Source: an uncultured bacterium
GTDB lineage: Bacteria; Planctomycetota; Phycisphaerae; Phycisphaerales; SM1A02
Assembly: GCA_903891095.1 (NCBI GenBank)
Contig: CAITDI010000083.1
Span: 1 to 32,591 of the forward strand
Direction of reading: 5' to 3'
Length of the DNA stretch: 32,591 bases
This document shows, piece after piece, positions 20,784-26,556 of this stretch. Position 1 is the stretch's first letter. Each line of letters starts with the position of its first letter. A program made the position numbers and the translations under genes. The notes under the pieces are model-generated. The model saw nothing but the letters and a program-made list of their open reading frames with translations, did not search any database and was not told the origin of the DNA.

Positions 20784-21181
20784 CAGACGACTGGTGGAGC
20801 TGTAAGCCGTCTGCGCCAACAACATATTTACTTCTCGGACGTTCACAGGGCGTAGAACGGCATAGACGTGGCATCAACCATGGCCTTCCAACCAAGGCTG
20901 CCAAGCCAAGTCGAGCCAAGTCAGTGTTCTCGCCAACAGTGAATCGAAGTCTTGCCGCCTGAGCGGATGACCGCGACGGAGGCGACTCCAACCGAGAACA
21001 GCGTGAGAGAGCCTGAGAGTTTGCGCCTGTCCAACAACAGGCGCCGTCGATCAGCGTGCGTAGGCGTGAGGCAACAGGTCTCAGGAAGAGACCTGCAACA
21101 AGAAAACTTCGTCTCGAAGCGCATGGTGGCGCGCGAGACGGGGACCGTGCGAGCCGGTGGGGTTCGCCTTCGGTGCGTTGC
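20784..21181 (+). ncRNA. Long structured leader (or separate RNA) upstream of dcd, family unknown
   Basis: About 400 nt without a convincing gene between the predicted start near 20784 and the dcd ATG. Hairpins in order: CGCAGACG/CGTCTGCG (20783-20816, 18-nt loop), CGTTC/GAACG (20840-20859), CCGC/GCGG (20955-20966), GGAG/CTCC with a GCGA tetraloop (20978-20989), GCGCCTGT/ACAGGCGC (21023-21044, 6-nt loop), CAGGTCTC/GAGACCTG (21075-21095, 5-nt loop). No T-run follows the last one, so the RNA probably reads into dcd. I looked for the cobalamin B12 box, glycine and TPP riboswitch cores, tmRNA, 6S, SRP RNA and RNase P signatures and found none. Confidence 0.45.
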
Positions 21182-21980: not shown

Positions 21981-24900
21981 ATGAAGATCTCGCGACGCTT
22001 CACCAAGTCCGGCCAGAACGTTTACGACACCATGGAATGGGCCAAGCGGTCCAGCCGCATCTCGAACTCCGACGGCTCGACCGTCTTCGAGATGAAGGAC
22101 GCGGAGATCCCCGCGTCGTGGAGTCAGCTTGCGACCGACATCGTCGTCAGCAAGTACTTCCGCAAGGCCGGCGTGCCGCAGTTCGATGCGAACGGCGTGC
22201 CGATGGTCGACGACGCAGGCAAGCCGGTCACCGGTCCTGAGAAGTCGGTCAAGCAGGTCGTCCACCGCCTCGCAGGCTGCTGGACGCACTGGGCGGAGAA
22301 GTACGGCTACTTCTCGACCAAGCGCGACGCCGAGGCGTTCTACGACGAGCTCGCGTACATGCTGCTCACGCAGATGGCCGCGCCGAACAGCCCGCAGTGG
22401 TTCAACACCGGCCTCAACTACGCGTACGGCATCTCGGGTCCCGCACAGGGCCACTGGATCGCCGACCACAAGACCGGCGCGACCAAGCTCGCCGCCGACG
22501 CGTACACCCACCCGCAGCCGCACGCGTGCTTCATCCAGGCGGTGAAGGACGACCTCGTCGGCGAGGGCGGCATCATGGACCTGTGGACGCGCGAGGCGCG
22601 CCTGTTCAAGTACGGCTCGGGCACCGGCACCAACTTCTCGCAGTGCCGCGGTGAGAACGAGCCGCTCTCGGGCGGCGGCAAGAGCTCCGGCCTGATGAGC
22701 TTCCTCAAGATCGGCGACCGCGCTGCGGCCGCGATCAAGTCGGGCGGCACGACCCGTCGCGCGGCCAAGATGGTCTGCCTCGACCTCGACCACCCCGACA
22801 TCGAGAGCTTCGTGAACTGGAAGGTTCGCGAGGAGATCAAGGTCGCCGCGCTCGTCGAGGGCATGAAGGTCCTCAGCGACGACCAGAAGAAGCTCGCCGA
22901 GAAGTTCAAGCTCAAGCTCGACTACGACTTCAACGGCGAGAGCTACTACACCGTCAGCGGCCAGAACTCCAACAACTCGGTGCGCATCCCCGACGCGTTC
23001 TTCGACGCGCTCGACGCCAACGAGGACTGGAAGCTCATCCGCCGCACCGACGGCAAGGTCGCCAAGACCGTCAAGGCCAACGAGCTTTGGGAAGAGATCA
23101 ACTTCGCCGCGTGGCGCTGCGCCGACCCGGGCGTGCAGTACGACAGCACGATCAACGCGTGGCACACCTGCCCCGCCGGTGGCCGCATCAACGCGAGCAA
23201 CCCGTGCTCCGAGTACATGTTCCTCGACAACACGGCGTGCAACCTGGCGTCGATCAACCTCCTCAAGCTCTACGACCCGACCACGCGTCGCTTCGATCTC
23301 GAGGGCTACGAGCACGCGATCAACCTCTGGACGATCGTGCTCGAGGTCTCGGTGCTCATGGCTGCGTTCCCGTCGAAGGAGATCGCGGACCTCTCGTGGC
23401 GCTACCGCACGCTCGGCCTCGGCTACGCCAACCTCGGCGCCATGCTGATGCAGGCAGGCATCCCGTACGACAGCGAGGAAGGCCGCGCGGTGTGCGGCAT
23501 GCTCACCTCGATCCTCACCGGCCGTTCGTACGCGGAGAGCGCGCTGCTCGCCGCCGAGCACGGACCGTTCGCGGGCTACGCGGAGAACCGCGACAACATG
23601 CTCCGCGTCGTGCGCAATCACCGGCGCGCCGCCCTCGGCGTGTCGCGTGACAGCGACGAGTACGAGTCGCTCCGCATCCGCCCCGTGTCGATCGATCACT
23701 CGATCGTCAAGGCCGGCAAGGTCAACATCGCCAACGCCGACAAGATGCTCGAGCGCGCGGTCGCCTGCTGGGATGACGCGCTCAACTACGGCGAGAAGTT
23801 CGGCTTCCGCAACGCGCAGACCACCGTCATCGCGCCGACCGGCACGATCGGCCTGCTCATGGACTGCGACACGACGGGCGTCGAGCCCGACTTCGCGCTC
23901 GTCAAGTTCAAGAAGCTCGCCGGCGGCGGTTACTTCAAGATCGCCAACCAGTCGCTGCGCCCGGCCATCCGCGCGCTCGGCTACTCGACCGAGCAGGTCG
24001 AGGACATGGTGACCTACGTCATGGGCACGCTGAGCCTCGACGTGCCGGTTCCGGCCGCCGACGGCTCGGTTTCGGCCGGCAAGACCGCGAGCTTCCGCGA
24101 CTTCCTCCTCTCGAAGGGCTACACCCACGAGCAGCTGGTCGCCGTCGAGAACTCGCTGCCGACCGTCTTCGAGATCGCCTTCGCGTTCAGCGCGTGGTCG
24201 ATGCCGGAGAACGTGCTCAAGACCTGCGGCGTCGACGCTGCTGCGGCCAAGGCCGACATGACCTTCAACGGTCTCCGCGCCCTCGGCCTCAACAAGAAGC
24301 AGATCGACACCATCAACCGCACGATCTGCGGCACGCAGACGATCGAAGGCGCCCCGCACCTCAAGGACGAGCACCTCGCGGTGTTCGACTGCGCGAACCG
24401 CTGCGGTCCGCTCAGCACGCGCTTCATCAAGCCCGAGGGCCACATCCGCATGATGGCTGCGTCGCAGCCGTTCATCACGGGCGCGATCTCGAAGACCATC
24501 AACCTTCCGTCGGATGCGACCGTCGAGGACATCGGCGCCTGCTACCGCCTCAGCTGGGAGCTCGGCCTCAAGGCCAACGCGCTCTACCGCGACGGCTGCA
24601 AGCTCAGCCAGCCGCTCTCGACCAAGAGCGACAAGGAAGAGAAGGACGACGACAAGGCAGCTGAGGCAAAGTCCGATGCAAAGGTCGAAGAAGTCGTCAC
24701 CGACGCCGCCGAGCAGAAGGACCTCCTCACCGAGGCGCTCGTGATCGAGGCCGAGGCTGCGATCCCGACCGCGATGCCCTCCGAAGTCCGCGAGATCGTC
24801 ATCGAGCGCGTCGTCGAGCGGATCATCGAGCGTCCGATGCGCCGTCGCCTCAACGACACGCGTGAGTCGATCACCCACAAGTTCAACGTCGCTGGCCACG

Positions 24901-25673
24901 AGGGCTACCTCATCGCCGGCCTCTACGACGACGGTCGCCCCGGTGAGCTCTTCATCACCATGGCGAAGGAAGGCTCCACCATCGGCGGCCTGATGGACTC
25001 GCTCGGCACCGCGGTGTCGGTCGCGCTCCAGTACGGCGTTCCGATCGAGAGCCTGGTCACGAAGTTTGCGCACCAGCGCTTTGAGCCGCAGGGCATGACG
25101 ACGAACGCAGACATTCCGTTCGCGAAGAGCCTGGTCGACTACATCTTCCGCTGGCTGGGAATGCAGTTCATCCCGGGCTACCGCGAGCAGAACGCTCCGC
25201 GTCGCCCCGGCTCGTCGCCCGAGTCGGTGACCGCGATCAGCACCGAGACCACGCGCGTCGACACCCGCACCGACACCCGCAAGGAGGATCCCGCATGTGC
25301 CACTGGATCGGCAACTGCATCGAGCACGGGCTGGAGCGTTCGTCGCGAAGCGGCGATCGAGGCCGCGAAGGAGTCCATCAGGGAAACCACCCGCGCCACC
25401 GATTCGATCGCGGGCACCGCGACGACGTCGCGCATCAGCACGTCGCACTCGGTCACCGCGGTGAGCGAGACGCGTACGAAGGACAGCCGCACCATCGAAG
25501 CCGTTGCAGCAGTCGAGCGGACCGTGAAGACGGTCGCCGCGAATGCGCTGGACGCGTCGAACGCCGCCATGATGGGCGATGCGCCGGCGTGCGATGGCTG
25601 CGGTTCGATCACGGTTCGGAACGGCACCTGCTACCGCTGCCTCAACTGCGGCAACAGCATGGGATGCAGCTGA
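21981..25673 (+). CDS. nrdJ: Adenosylcobalamin-dependent ribonucleotide reductase (class II)
   Basis: Reduces ribonucleotides to deoxyribonucleotides with a radical made from coenzyme B12, without needing oxygen. 1230 residues. The catalytic core has C183 (HACFIQAV) and C420 (TACNLASINL) as the redox pair and C409 in NPCSEY as the radical cysteine; N407 and E411 flank it. The 11-residue spacing of C409 and C420 is that of B12-dependent NrdJ. Residues about 870-960 are a charged Lys/Glu-rich segment, then a conserved domain (ITHKFNVAGHEGYLIAGLYD to FIPGYREQ), a Ser/Thr-rich linker of some 120 residues, and a C-terminal zinc-ribbon-like CDGCGSITVRNGTCYRCLNC that probably shuttles electrons. No NrdR box or cobalamin riboswitch is seen upstream. 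No class I or III reductase gene is in the window. Confidence 0.96.
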   Translation: MKISRRFTKSGQNVYDTMEWAKRSSRISNSDGSTVFEMKDAEIPASWSQLATDIVVSKYFRKAGVPQFDANGVPMVDDAGKPVTGPEKSVKQVVHRLAGCWTHWAEKYGYFSTKRDAEAFYDELAYMLLTQMAAPNSPQWFNTGLNYAYGISGPAQGHWIADHKTGATKLAADAYTHPQPHACFIQAVKDDLVGEGGIMDLWTREARLFKYGSGTGTNFSQCRGENEPLSGGGKSSGLMSFLKIGDRAAAAIKSGGTTRRAAKMVCLDLDHPDIESFVNWKVREEIKVAALVEGMKVLSDDQKKLAEKFKLKLDYDFNGESYYTVSGQNSNNSVRIPDAFFDALDANEDWKLIRRTDGKVAKTVKANELWEEINFAAWRCADPGVQYDSTINAWHTCPAGGRINASNPCSEYMFLDNTACNLASINLLKLYDPTTRRFDLEGYEHAINLWTIVLEVSVLMAAFPSKEIADLSWRYRTLGLGYANLGAMLMQAGIPYDSEEGRAVCGMLTSILTGRSYAESALLAAEHGPFAGYAENRDNMLRVVRNHRRAALGVSRDSDEYESLRIRPVSIDHSIVKAGKVNIANADKMLERAVACWDDALNYGEKFGFRNAQTTVIAPTGTIGLLMDCDTTGVEPDFALVKFKKLAGGGYFKIANQSLRPAIRALGYSTEQVEDMVTYVMGTLSLDVPVPAADGSVSAGKTASFRDFLLSKGYTHEQLVAVENSLPTVFEIAFAFSAWSMPENVLKTCGVDAAAAKADMTFNGLRALGLNKKQIDTINRTICGTQTIEGAPHLKDEHLAVFDCANRCGPLSTRFIKPEGHIRMMAASQPFITGAISKTINLPSDATVEDIGACYRLSWELGLKANALYRDGCKLSQPLSTKSDKEEKDDDKAAEAKSDAKVEEVVTDAAEQKDLLTEALVIEAEAAIPTAMPSEVREIVIERVVERIIERPMRRRLNDTRESITHKFNVAGHEGYLIAGLYDDGRPGELFITMAKEGSTIGGLMDSLGTAVSVALQYGVPIESLVTKFAHQRFEPQGMTTNADIPFAKSLVDYIFRWLGMQFIPGYREQNAPRRPGSSPESVTAISTETTRVDTRTDTRKEDPACATGSATASSTGWSVRREAAIEAAKESIRETTRATDSIAGTATTSRISTSHSVTAVSETRTKDSRTIEAVAAVERTVKTVAANALDASNAAMMGDAPACDGCGSITVRNGTCYRCLNCGNSMGCS

Positions 25674-26360
25674 ACGGCAAGCTTCCCGCTCCCACCGGCC
25701 GCTTTGGTCGCTGGGAGCGGGAGTCGCAAGCCACGCCGAGCATGAACGCCCGCAAGCGCTTCGCTCGAACCTGGTGCGCGAGCCGCTGACAGACGACTGA
25801 GATACCGAATGAAATCACGGGCTTCGGCCCCGGTCACGCGCACCGCACTGCGCTGGCCGATCAAAGAAGTGTGCAACTGGAGACTGATGGCAGCGCGGAC
25901 GCAATCCCGCTGCGACGACTGACCGCGCGCCACAGGAGGTGGCAGATCTCGGATCCGCTCGAACGCGCATGTGCGAACGAGACCGGGTCCGAAAGGAACG
26001 GAAGCCGAAATTCATGCGCGGCCAATCGTCCGGGTGTTTGCTGAGGACTCCGACACACCCGGCGTAGTCATACGAACGTTCAAGAGAGACCGACCCGACT
26101 GCTGGATCGACCGAGGAAACTCGATCGCCCGGCCTCGGGTTTGGGAAGGTCAGCAAGCGGATGGACCCTACTTGCATCGATGAGGCGCGCAAGGAGTTCG
26201 CAGAGCCTCATCCCCGACGGCATGGCCTCACATGTGACGCGGGCGACCGACCCATCTCGACTGAACGCTTGTTCCAGAGCCACCATGTCGGGGCCAACCA
26301 CGCGACGGCCCCGGCTCAATGCCCCCCGCGGATCCCACCTCCGCGGGGGGCGATTTTTTT
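25674..26360 (+). ncRNA. Long structured non-coding region ending in an intrinsic terminator, family unknown
   Basis: About 690 nt between the nrdJ stop and the terminator hold no convincing gene but many strong stems: an 11-bp stem at 25684-25722 right after nrdJ, CCGGGTGT/ACACCCGG (26030-26062), CGAG/CTCG with a GAAA tetraloop extended by three more pairs (26108-26127), GCAAG/CTTGC (26153-26175), GATGAGGC/GCCTCATC (26179-26212), CGGGGCC/GGCCCCG (26289-26313), then the terminator. It is either a very long nrdJ 3' UTR or an independent RNA; I see no clear internal promoter. It matches no RNA family I can recognise. Confidence 0.45.
26322..26360 (+). terminator. Intrinsic terminator of the nrdJ transcript or 3' RNA
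   Basis: Perfect 11-bp stem CCCCCCGCGGA (26322-26332) with TCCGCGGGGGG (26340-26350), 7-nt loop, followed by CGATTTTTTT. Confidence 0.95.
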
Positions 26361-26379
26361 CGCCTGCGGCGTAGTTTTT

Positions 26380-26429
26380 CGCCTGCGACATTCGATCTGA
26401 GGCTGGCGCCTCAGATCTCTTCGCAGGCG
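26380..26429. repeat. Hairpin repeat element, copy 1
   Basis: Outer stem CGCCTGCGA (26380-26388) with TCGCAGGCG (26421-26429); inner stem GATCTGAGGC (26394-26403) with GCCTCAGATC (26408-26417); loop TGGC; 5-nt and 3-nt internal loop. The 3' flank TCTTCGCAGGCGGG is shared with copy 2. Confidence 0.8.
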
Positions 26430-26491
26430 GGCCGGGTGGAGAGCGGTTGAGCTTGGGGATGTGCGCTGTCGCGCAAACTGCGTCGGTCTTC

Positions 26492-26529
26492 GCGTCGCGG
26501 CTGGCGCCGCGGCGCTCTTCGCAGGCGGG
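26492..26529. repeat. Hairpin repeat element, copy 2 (covarying stem)
   Basis: Stem GCGTCGCGGC (26492-26501) with GCCGCGGCGC (26506-26515, one G-U pair); same TGGC loop and same 3' flank TCTTCGCAGGCGGG as copy 1, but a different stem sequence. No outer stem is evident. It ends 39 nt before the DUF1684 gene. Confidence 0.75.
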
Positions 26530-26556
26530 TGTGGGTTGCAGGCGGGGCGTGGGCGT

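Follow-up and report, generated by a model that had tools for sequence, protein, structure and literature searches.

The nrdJ locus and its 3′ region

The window, that is the whole stretch of 32,591 nucleotides that was analysed, comes from an uncultured bacterium of the Phycisphaerales and contains the gene nrdJ, right past the stop codon of which a long RNA region begins (25674-26360). A first-pass annotation had taken this region for a non-coding, structured and undescribed RNA that follows nrdJ and ends in a terminator of its own, and this assignment is borne out. The fold of 25674-26365 (692 nt) is predicted at −328 kcal/mol as against −282 kcal/mol (sd 9.6) for 20 dinucleotide shuffles, giving a z score of −4.75, Pfam returned no match for the three ORFs that overlap the region (two on the forward strand and one on the reverse), and the homologues are conserved and show compensatory changes. 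A search of the whole window against Rfam gave no match in the RNA region at gathering scores. The terminator is formed of a hairpin at 26321-26351 and a T-run at 26354-26360, and the terminator scan of the window shows none between nrdJ and this terminator.

Table 1. Features of nrdJ and of the downstream RNA region in the source genome, in positions of the window
Feature	Position	Strand	Basis
nrdJ, class II (B12-dependent) ribonucleotide reductase, 1230 aa; precedes the RNA	21981..25673	+	ORF, translation; Pfam PF02867, PF08471, PF12637
Whole RNA region, up to the terminator: nrdJ 3′ UTR and/or processed or separate sRNA	25674..26360	+	No Pfam match, fold z score, homologues
Strong 5′ hairpin of the source genome, sequence not conserved	25683..25723	+	Sequence, alignment
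CGGGCUUCGGCCCCG hairpin, with which the genus-conserved part begins; several genus members lack it or have it replaced	25818..25832	+	Sequence, alignment
Long-range helix, 5′ strand; closes the ~420-nt genus-level domain	25868..25873	+	Genus RNAalifold (15 members), with some compensatory changes
Covarying stem, 5′ strand; partner 26016-26028	25916..25928	+	Genus RNAalifold, columns 118-130 with 239-252
Hairpin GCCAC[AGGAG]GUGGC, AGGA in loop	25929..25943	+	Stem pairs each kept in at least 13/15
AGGAA[C/U]GGAAGCCGAA block with A-N-GGA motif, N variable	25994..26009	+	15/15 genus members
Hairpin CCGGGUGU...ACACCCGG containing GAGGA	26030..26062	+	Sequence, genus alignment, RNAalifold
Core hairpin P1, GCAAG C GG[AUGGAC]CC UA CUUGC, hexaloop ANGGAN; ANGGA site 1 at 26161-26165	26153..26175	+	Alignment, pair counts, own fold
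Core hairpin P2, 9-nt consensus loop ANGGAGUUC; ANGGA site 2 at 26191-26195	26179..26212	+	Alignment, pair counts
Genus-level hairpin, loop of conserved GGCCUCAC type	26219..26235	+	Sequence, genus RNAalifold
Long-range closing helix, 3′ strand (CCACCAC block)	26281..26287	+	Genus RNAalifold
Hairpin CGGGGCC[AACCACGCGAC]GGCCCCG	26289..26313	+	Sequence, genus RNAalifold
Intrinsic terminator, conserved C-rich loop (U/C)CCCACC	26321..26360	+	Alignment, genus RNAalifold, terminator-loop counts

Besides the source genome, the genus alignment comprises 14 of the 15 other genomes; G011, whose contig ends inside the RNA, was left out. The RNAalifold consensus obtained from this alignment contains 83 pairs, with one or more compensatory changes in 36, and forms a domain of about 420 nt closed by a long-range helix, the result being dominated by the folding term (−108 of −116 kcal/mol). 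The first pair of the closing helix is unformed in the source genome. The loop of the hairpin at 25929-25943 reads AGGAR in 13 of the 15 genus members and is broken in L002 and L003, and the GAGGA of the hairpin at 26030-26062 is absent from one of the 15 (L015) and has its GGA paired with UCC in the consensus structure. A hairpin with a GAAA tetraloop, singled out in the first-pass annotation, is indeed present at 26112-26123, but the stretch that holds it is unconserved in the 15-member alignment. On the 3′ side of the terminator, ahead of a DUF1684 gene, positions 26382-26530 contain inverted repeats (GATCTGAGG...CCTCAGATC, GCAGGCG).

Conservation and linkage to nrdJ

With the RNA stretch as the query, blastn finds the RNA in 17 of 60 relatives, comprising 15 of the 15 genomes of the same genus, two of 21 other genomes of the family and none of 24 other genomes of the order. 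The conservation in close relatives on which the earlier proposal had been made to depend is present, and covariation supports the structure. In all 17 relatives the C-terminus of nrdJ is encoded directly upstream on the same strand. A 22-base pattern of the core matches 32 stretches in named genome records, of which 27 carry Planctomycet- or Phycisphaer- names (13 of them Phycisphaer-), three are labelled uncultured bacterium, one is a Chitinophaga and one is Candidatus Kuenenia. The nrdJ gene is found upstream in 29 of the 32; for two of the other three (L030 and L035) the stretch extends upstream of the match by under 200 nt, and the third (L052) is cut.

Two covariance models extend this picture. 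The first, R1, was made from 17 sequences and matches in 101 of 181 family genomes; at 40 R1 loci, weak matches included, nrdJ lies upstream on the same strand every time, the alignment to nrdJ at one of them (L115) reaching residue 1075 only. The second, R2, describes the two hairpins of the 73-nt core and matches in 122 of the 181 genomes, spread over 36 of 45 genera. Its weakest matches, with E above 0.002, include several that lie away from nrdJ and are probably due to chance. The nrdJ gene itself is present in 174 of the 181 genomes and in 104 of the 104 good ones. When the R2 places are compared with those of nrdJ, 78 of 81 follow nrdJ on the same strand at a distance of 89-579 nt (median 143), the 81 being a subset of the 125 R2 places that was picked where the place of nrdJ is also known, with coordinates entered by hand. 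The three unpaired places are those of G193 and G194, in which nrdJ is on another contig, and a weak second match in G024, 1.9 Mb off nrdJ. Across 397 genomes of the class, R2 finds 26 members of the family and one weak match outside it (G525, E 0.0017); both this match and the weak second one in G024 are by eye unlike the RNA.

Within the family the length of the RNA ranges from roughly 290 to 790 nt. The likeness to large ornate bacterial RNAs that had been suggested applies in part: the RNA is structured and long, but the long form is an expansion at the genus level and the family-wide part is a core of about 73 nt with two hairpins of CsrA type. In other families of the order, a core-like GGCGAG(U/A)GG-ANGGA can be recognised by eye in f3, in f4 and in two of five f2 genomes. 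No ANGGA occurs before the terminator behind nrdJ in G037, G046 and G050 (f2, genus g23), G040 (f5) or G049 (f6), all of which have csrA. The RNA has been retained across the family and in parts of the order, and it is a conserved structured RNA of the Phycisphaerales that is linked to nrdJ. The first-pass annotation had also proposed that it brackets dcd-nrdJ together with a leader at 20784, as a candidate system; the linkage found here concerns nrdJ alone.

The core and its two A-N-GGA loops

Among 63 distinct cores, nine of the 73 columns never vary, namely C12, then A19, G21, G22 and A23, and finally A49, G51, G52 and A53, which amounts to one C and two A-N-GGA motifs, each placed in a consensus hairpin loop; this complete invariance comes from one alignment, and in an alternative alignment of the same cores (A4), where L089 is dropped and L099 and L042 are shifted at site 2, A49, G51 and A53 are only nearly invariant. 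The N column holds U in 49, A in seven and C in seven of the cores at site 1, and C in 33, A in 13, U in nine and G in eight at site 2. The two sites lie 28-32 nt apart. G54 and T55, which are invariant in the 17 training sequences, fall to 34 and 33 of the 63 in the wider set, and hence model selection alone does not create the pattern.

The loop at site 1 is a hexaloop closed by a GG/CC stem, and the source genome's own sequence folds likewise. At site 2, the lowest-energy fold of the source genome pairs the two A's before the GGA with UU, which leaves GGAG as the loop. Pairing is seen in 91.1% of the cells of the core helices and 96 cells are double-changed, against 32.1 (sd 4.8) in shuffles, a count that leans towards the 63 sequences because the structure counted was derived from them. 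The covariation score of the core is 0.344, compared with 0.110 and 0.167 when the partners are slid by one column, whilst double changes affect no more core pairs than in the slid versions (10 against 7-11, with 10 and 11 for slides by one column).

CsrA-type recognition involves contacts to the A and to the GGA and leaves N variable, as set out in an excerpt of PMC7652899, and a hexaloop ANGGAX placed directly on a stem is the proposed high-affinity CsrA/RsmE consensus in an excerpt of PMC4005645. At the level of sequence, the two invariant A-N-GGA loops of the core are this published CsrA/RsmA recognition element. One CsrA dimer could perhaps bridge both core sites.

Enrichment of ANGGA behind nrdJ

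Sequences chosen by the models or by the pattern contain ANGGA already, and a fairer set is provided by ten family genera without an R2 match behind nrdJ; nine of these are free of any R2 match, and the tenth (g59) includes one genome with a weak match, located on a different contig from nrdJ. The ten genera contain 2-6 ANGGA per 350 nt behind nrdJ, with a mean of 4.2 against 1.92 (sd 0.42) in shuffles, of which the highest of 500 sets reaches 3.30. In hairpin loops the motif occurs 1.5 times as against 0.31 in shuffles, and it is the most enriched of the 256 XNYZW patterns (42 versus 17.9). Sampling 41 family genera by one genome each gives a mean of 4.37, compared with 1.76 (sd 0.20) in shuffles, and 20 genomes of five other families of the order have a mean of 2.95 against 1.48 (sd 0.27). 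ANGGA is at background in the reverse complements (1.57 versus 1.48 in 42 rows, genus g17 being represented by two loci) and in windows 900-1250 nt downstream (0.96 versus 1.27 in 27 rows). A general excess of GGA is at most slight: among 18 elements, total GGA exceeds the mean of the shuffles in 16, at most by about 2.3 sd; A(N)GGA exceeds it in all 18, by between 0.4 and 3.3 sd.

In 30 longer stretches, the 350 nt behind nrdJ hold 4.07 ANGGA, the local mean being 1.09, and they fall within the local top 5% for 17 of the stretches and outside it for 13, the source locus being one of the latter. The first 350 nt behind nrdJ in the source genome contain only two ANGGA, and its whole RNA has nine A(N)GGA against 6.3 (sd 2.3) in shuffles. 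Loop A(N)GGA above chance is found for the RNA family and is weak for the RNA of the source genome alone.

Comparison with known RNAs

At the thresholds used, the RNA is without a counterpart in Rfam 15 (4227 families), since neither a search of the stretch at E up to 5 nor searches of 18 loci at permissive E-values gave anything that reaches a gathering score. The best sub-threshold match is to 6C RNA, at 26284-26358 (37.4 of 47 bits, E 0.004), and L002 shows one to sX13 (27.5 of 50 bits, E 0.15). Both are C-rich-loop sRNAs, and the likeness lies in the C-rich loops of the terminal hairpins, with scores under the gathering thresholds. OLE, GOLLD, ROOL and raiA, which had been named as candidate families, share with HEARO and the present RNA the character of a long structured bacterial RNA, but the Rfam search of the stretch returns none of the five, even with E-values up to 5 admitted.

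The CsrB, CsrC and Rsm families give no match to the source stretch at gathering scores or at E up to 5, and the RNA is thus not assigned to them. It is like CsrB/CsrC and RsmX/Y/Z of the Gammaproteobacteria in having hairpins with A(N)GGA loops, an intrinsic terminator and csrA in the genome. It is unlike them in its lack of an Rfam match, its Phycisphaerales host, its fixed place behind nrdJ and its compact core with two strictly conserved sites; moreover, the genome also has FliW. The Campylobacter jejuni flaA mRNA, as presented in an excerpt of PMC4894983, is alike in that an mRNA acts as CsrA antagonist in a genome with FliW, outside the Gammaproteobacteria, but its sites are in the leader whereas those of the nrdJ RNA are in a 3′ region that carries a separate terminator.

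Several other identities were considered and rejected. A misidentified RNase P was dismissed, as the source genome's own RNase P lies elsewhere. A phage origin finds no blastn match in the phage collection and no match of the core pattern in viral contigs. A short peptide (the MDPSCTG... reading of the core) is contradicted by the spacing of the anchors, which is not kept modulo 3, and by stops and frameshifts in genus members: the ANGGA spacing leaves remainders of 0, 1 and 2 in 32, 16 and 15 of the 63 sequences, a spread which means that no frame is kept. The decayed protein gene that had been raised as a possible refutation is not found either, the reading frame of the core not being kept in relatives and Pfam giving no match.

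Among open-licence literature, no title or beginning of an abstract names an nrdJ-linked RNA or a CsrA sponge of the Phycisphaerales. One Streptomyces paper (PMC8388888) is said to deal with nrdJ and structured RNA. In the literature on CsrA, antagonistic sRNAs are described for the Gammaproteobacteria and FliW for other bacteria (excerpts of PMC7652899 and PMC4894983), both FliW and the flaA mRNA are antagonists in Campylobacter (PMC4894983, in excerpt), and a candidate ncRNA of Leptospira is mentioned in an excerpt of PMC8668096. Given the Leptospira candidate and the flaA mRNA, control of CsrA by RNA outside the Gammaproteobacteria is not wholly unprecedented.

CsrA and FliW in the family

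The csrA gene is present in 177 of 181 family genomes and in 24 of 24 genomes of the order, and being nearly universal it cannot discriminate, by presence or absence, with respect to the presence of the RNA. The source genome has two csrA genes, the main one beside fliW (L157, C22:51895-52050) and a more divergent one (L158, C122:11725-11889) on a contig that differs from that of the only fliW match. The leaders of the main csrA contain ANGGA in all seven cases examined. That of the source genome has six within 100 nt, and one of the six falls within a predicted hairpin, GGGC-ACGGAA-GCCC, an arrangement such as self-control of csrA would need. The one leader of a divergent csrA that was examined has no ANGGA and carries a GAC-AGGAG-GUC sequence at the ribosome-binding site.

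Some family genera show only the divergent type. By a hand tally, the core is kept in 38 of the 45 family genomes of this kind (39 with a weak match off nrdJ) as against 83 of 136 others, with the types assigned by E-value and not by tree and with 27 of the 45 genomes coming from two genera. In family f5, five of six genomes are without the divergent type, and no core is seen by eye in the six regions. As the types rest on E-values and the 45 genomes are related, the divergent CsrA as the partner of the RNA is only a lead.

A possible role in the control of CsrA

The reading that we favour, and regard as probable, is a Csr/Rsm-like CsrA-binding RNA that is made as the nrdJ 3′ UTR, or cut from it, and titrates CsrA. 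The stretch would be transcribed as the nrdJ 3′ UTR at the very least, and its A-N-GGA motifs would be presented to CsrA in hairpin loops in the manner of CsrB/RsmZ. CsrA dimers, held at the two core sites and at more in the expanded forms, would then be titrated off their target mRNAs, and the activity of CsrA would thereby follow the expression of nrdJ. We infer the transcription with nrdJ, the binding of CsrA and titration rather than control of nrdJ.

This reading is favoured by the conservation, the structure, the linkage to nrdJ, the invariant ANGGA loops, the enrichment of ANGGA in the genera without an R2 match behind nrdJ, the presence of csrA in the genomes and the ANGGA of the main csrA leaders. 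Against it stand the modest A(N)GGA content of the source RNA, the partly paired site 2, the count of double-changed core pairs, which does not exceed that of the slid versions, the AGGAG loop broken in two of 15 genus members, the relatives that lack ANGGA before the terminator despite having csrA, and the C-rich terminator loop, which it does not explain. The presence of FliW, another known CsrA antagonist, beside csrA also counts against a CsrA sponge. The broader proposal, in which the 3′ region of the nrdJ transcript in much of the Phycisphaerales is a CsrA sponge that ties free CsrA to a DNA-precursor enzyme, alongside or in place of FliW, is a tentative one, to which we give slightly less than an even chance. 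If true, the range of RNA control of CsrA would be wider and would reach the Planctomycetota, much post-transcriptional control would be tied to the production of a DNA-precursor enzyme, and the CsrA of these bacteria would be opened to study, ribonucleotide reductase being connected with a global regulator in a way that can be tested.

The main rival is control in cis, with CsrA on the nrdJ 3′ UTR setting the stability or expression of the nrdJ mRNA and no sponge involved. Such control would fit the linkage to nrdJ in 78 of the 81 compared places, the strict family-wide conservation of only two sites, and the terminator scan, which places the RNA and nrdJ ahead of one and the same terminator. 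We nevertheless consider it unlikely, as the first 330 nt behind nrdJ contain three or more ANGGA in many family genomes (2-8 across 20 family regions), which gives them the look of a multi-site titrator, and CsrA acts mainly by binding the 5′ regions of mRNAs according to an excerpt of PMC4894983.

The C-rich terminator loop

Behind nrdJ, a CCACC with a T-run following within 28 nt occurs at 40 of 55 loci of the family and in 16 of the 20 genomes from other families, compared with one of 37 control windows further downstream. The C-rich loop of the terminator occurs as widely as the GGA loops do, is also found in the forms without ANGGA, and is not explained by the binding of CsrA. These counts, the ANGGA-less forms of some relatives and the sub-threshold resemblance to 6C RNA and sX13 would suit an RNA whose loops bind another protein, or which binds mRNAs via the terminator loop, its resemblance to CsrA targets being incidental. 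Set against the exact invariance of A-N-GGA, with a free N, in two different loops and the enrichment of ANGGA outside the model-selected set, a partner other than CsrA appears improbable. An ordinary long 3′ UTR and terminator without function, for which the variable length within the family might speak, or a decayed protein gene is hardly credible in view of the covariation, the persistence of the RNA across the family and in parts of the order, and an ANGGA spacing of 28-32 nt that keeps no frame.

The C-rich terminator loop resembles an anti-Shine-Dalgarno loop. A pseudoknot between its CCACC and a GGUGG in the RNA was considered and rejected, as by eye it is inconsistent between genera. 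In several genera (L159-L178) a 5′ hairpin with the loop CGCUCCG can be seen by eye right after the nrdJ stop; this loop is complementary to AGGAG-like stretches further on, with which it may form a pseudoknot.
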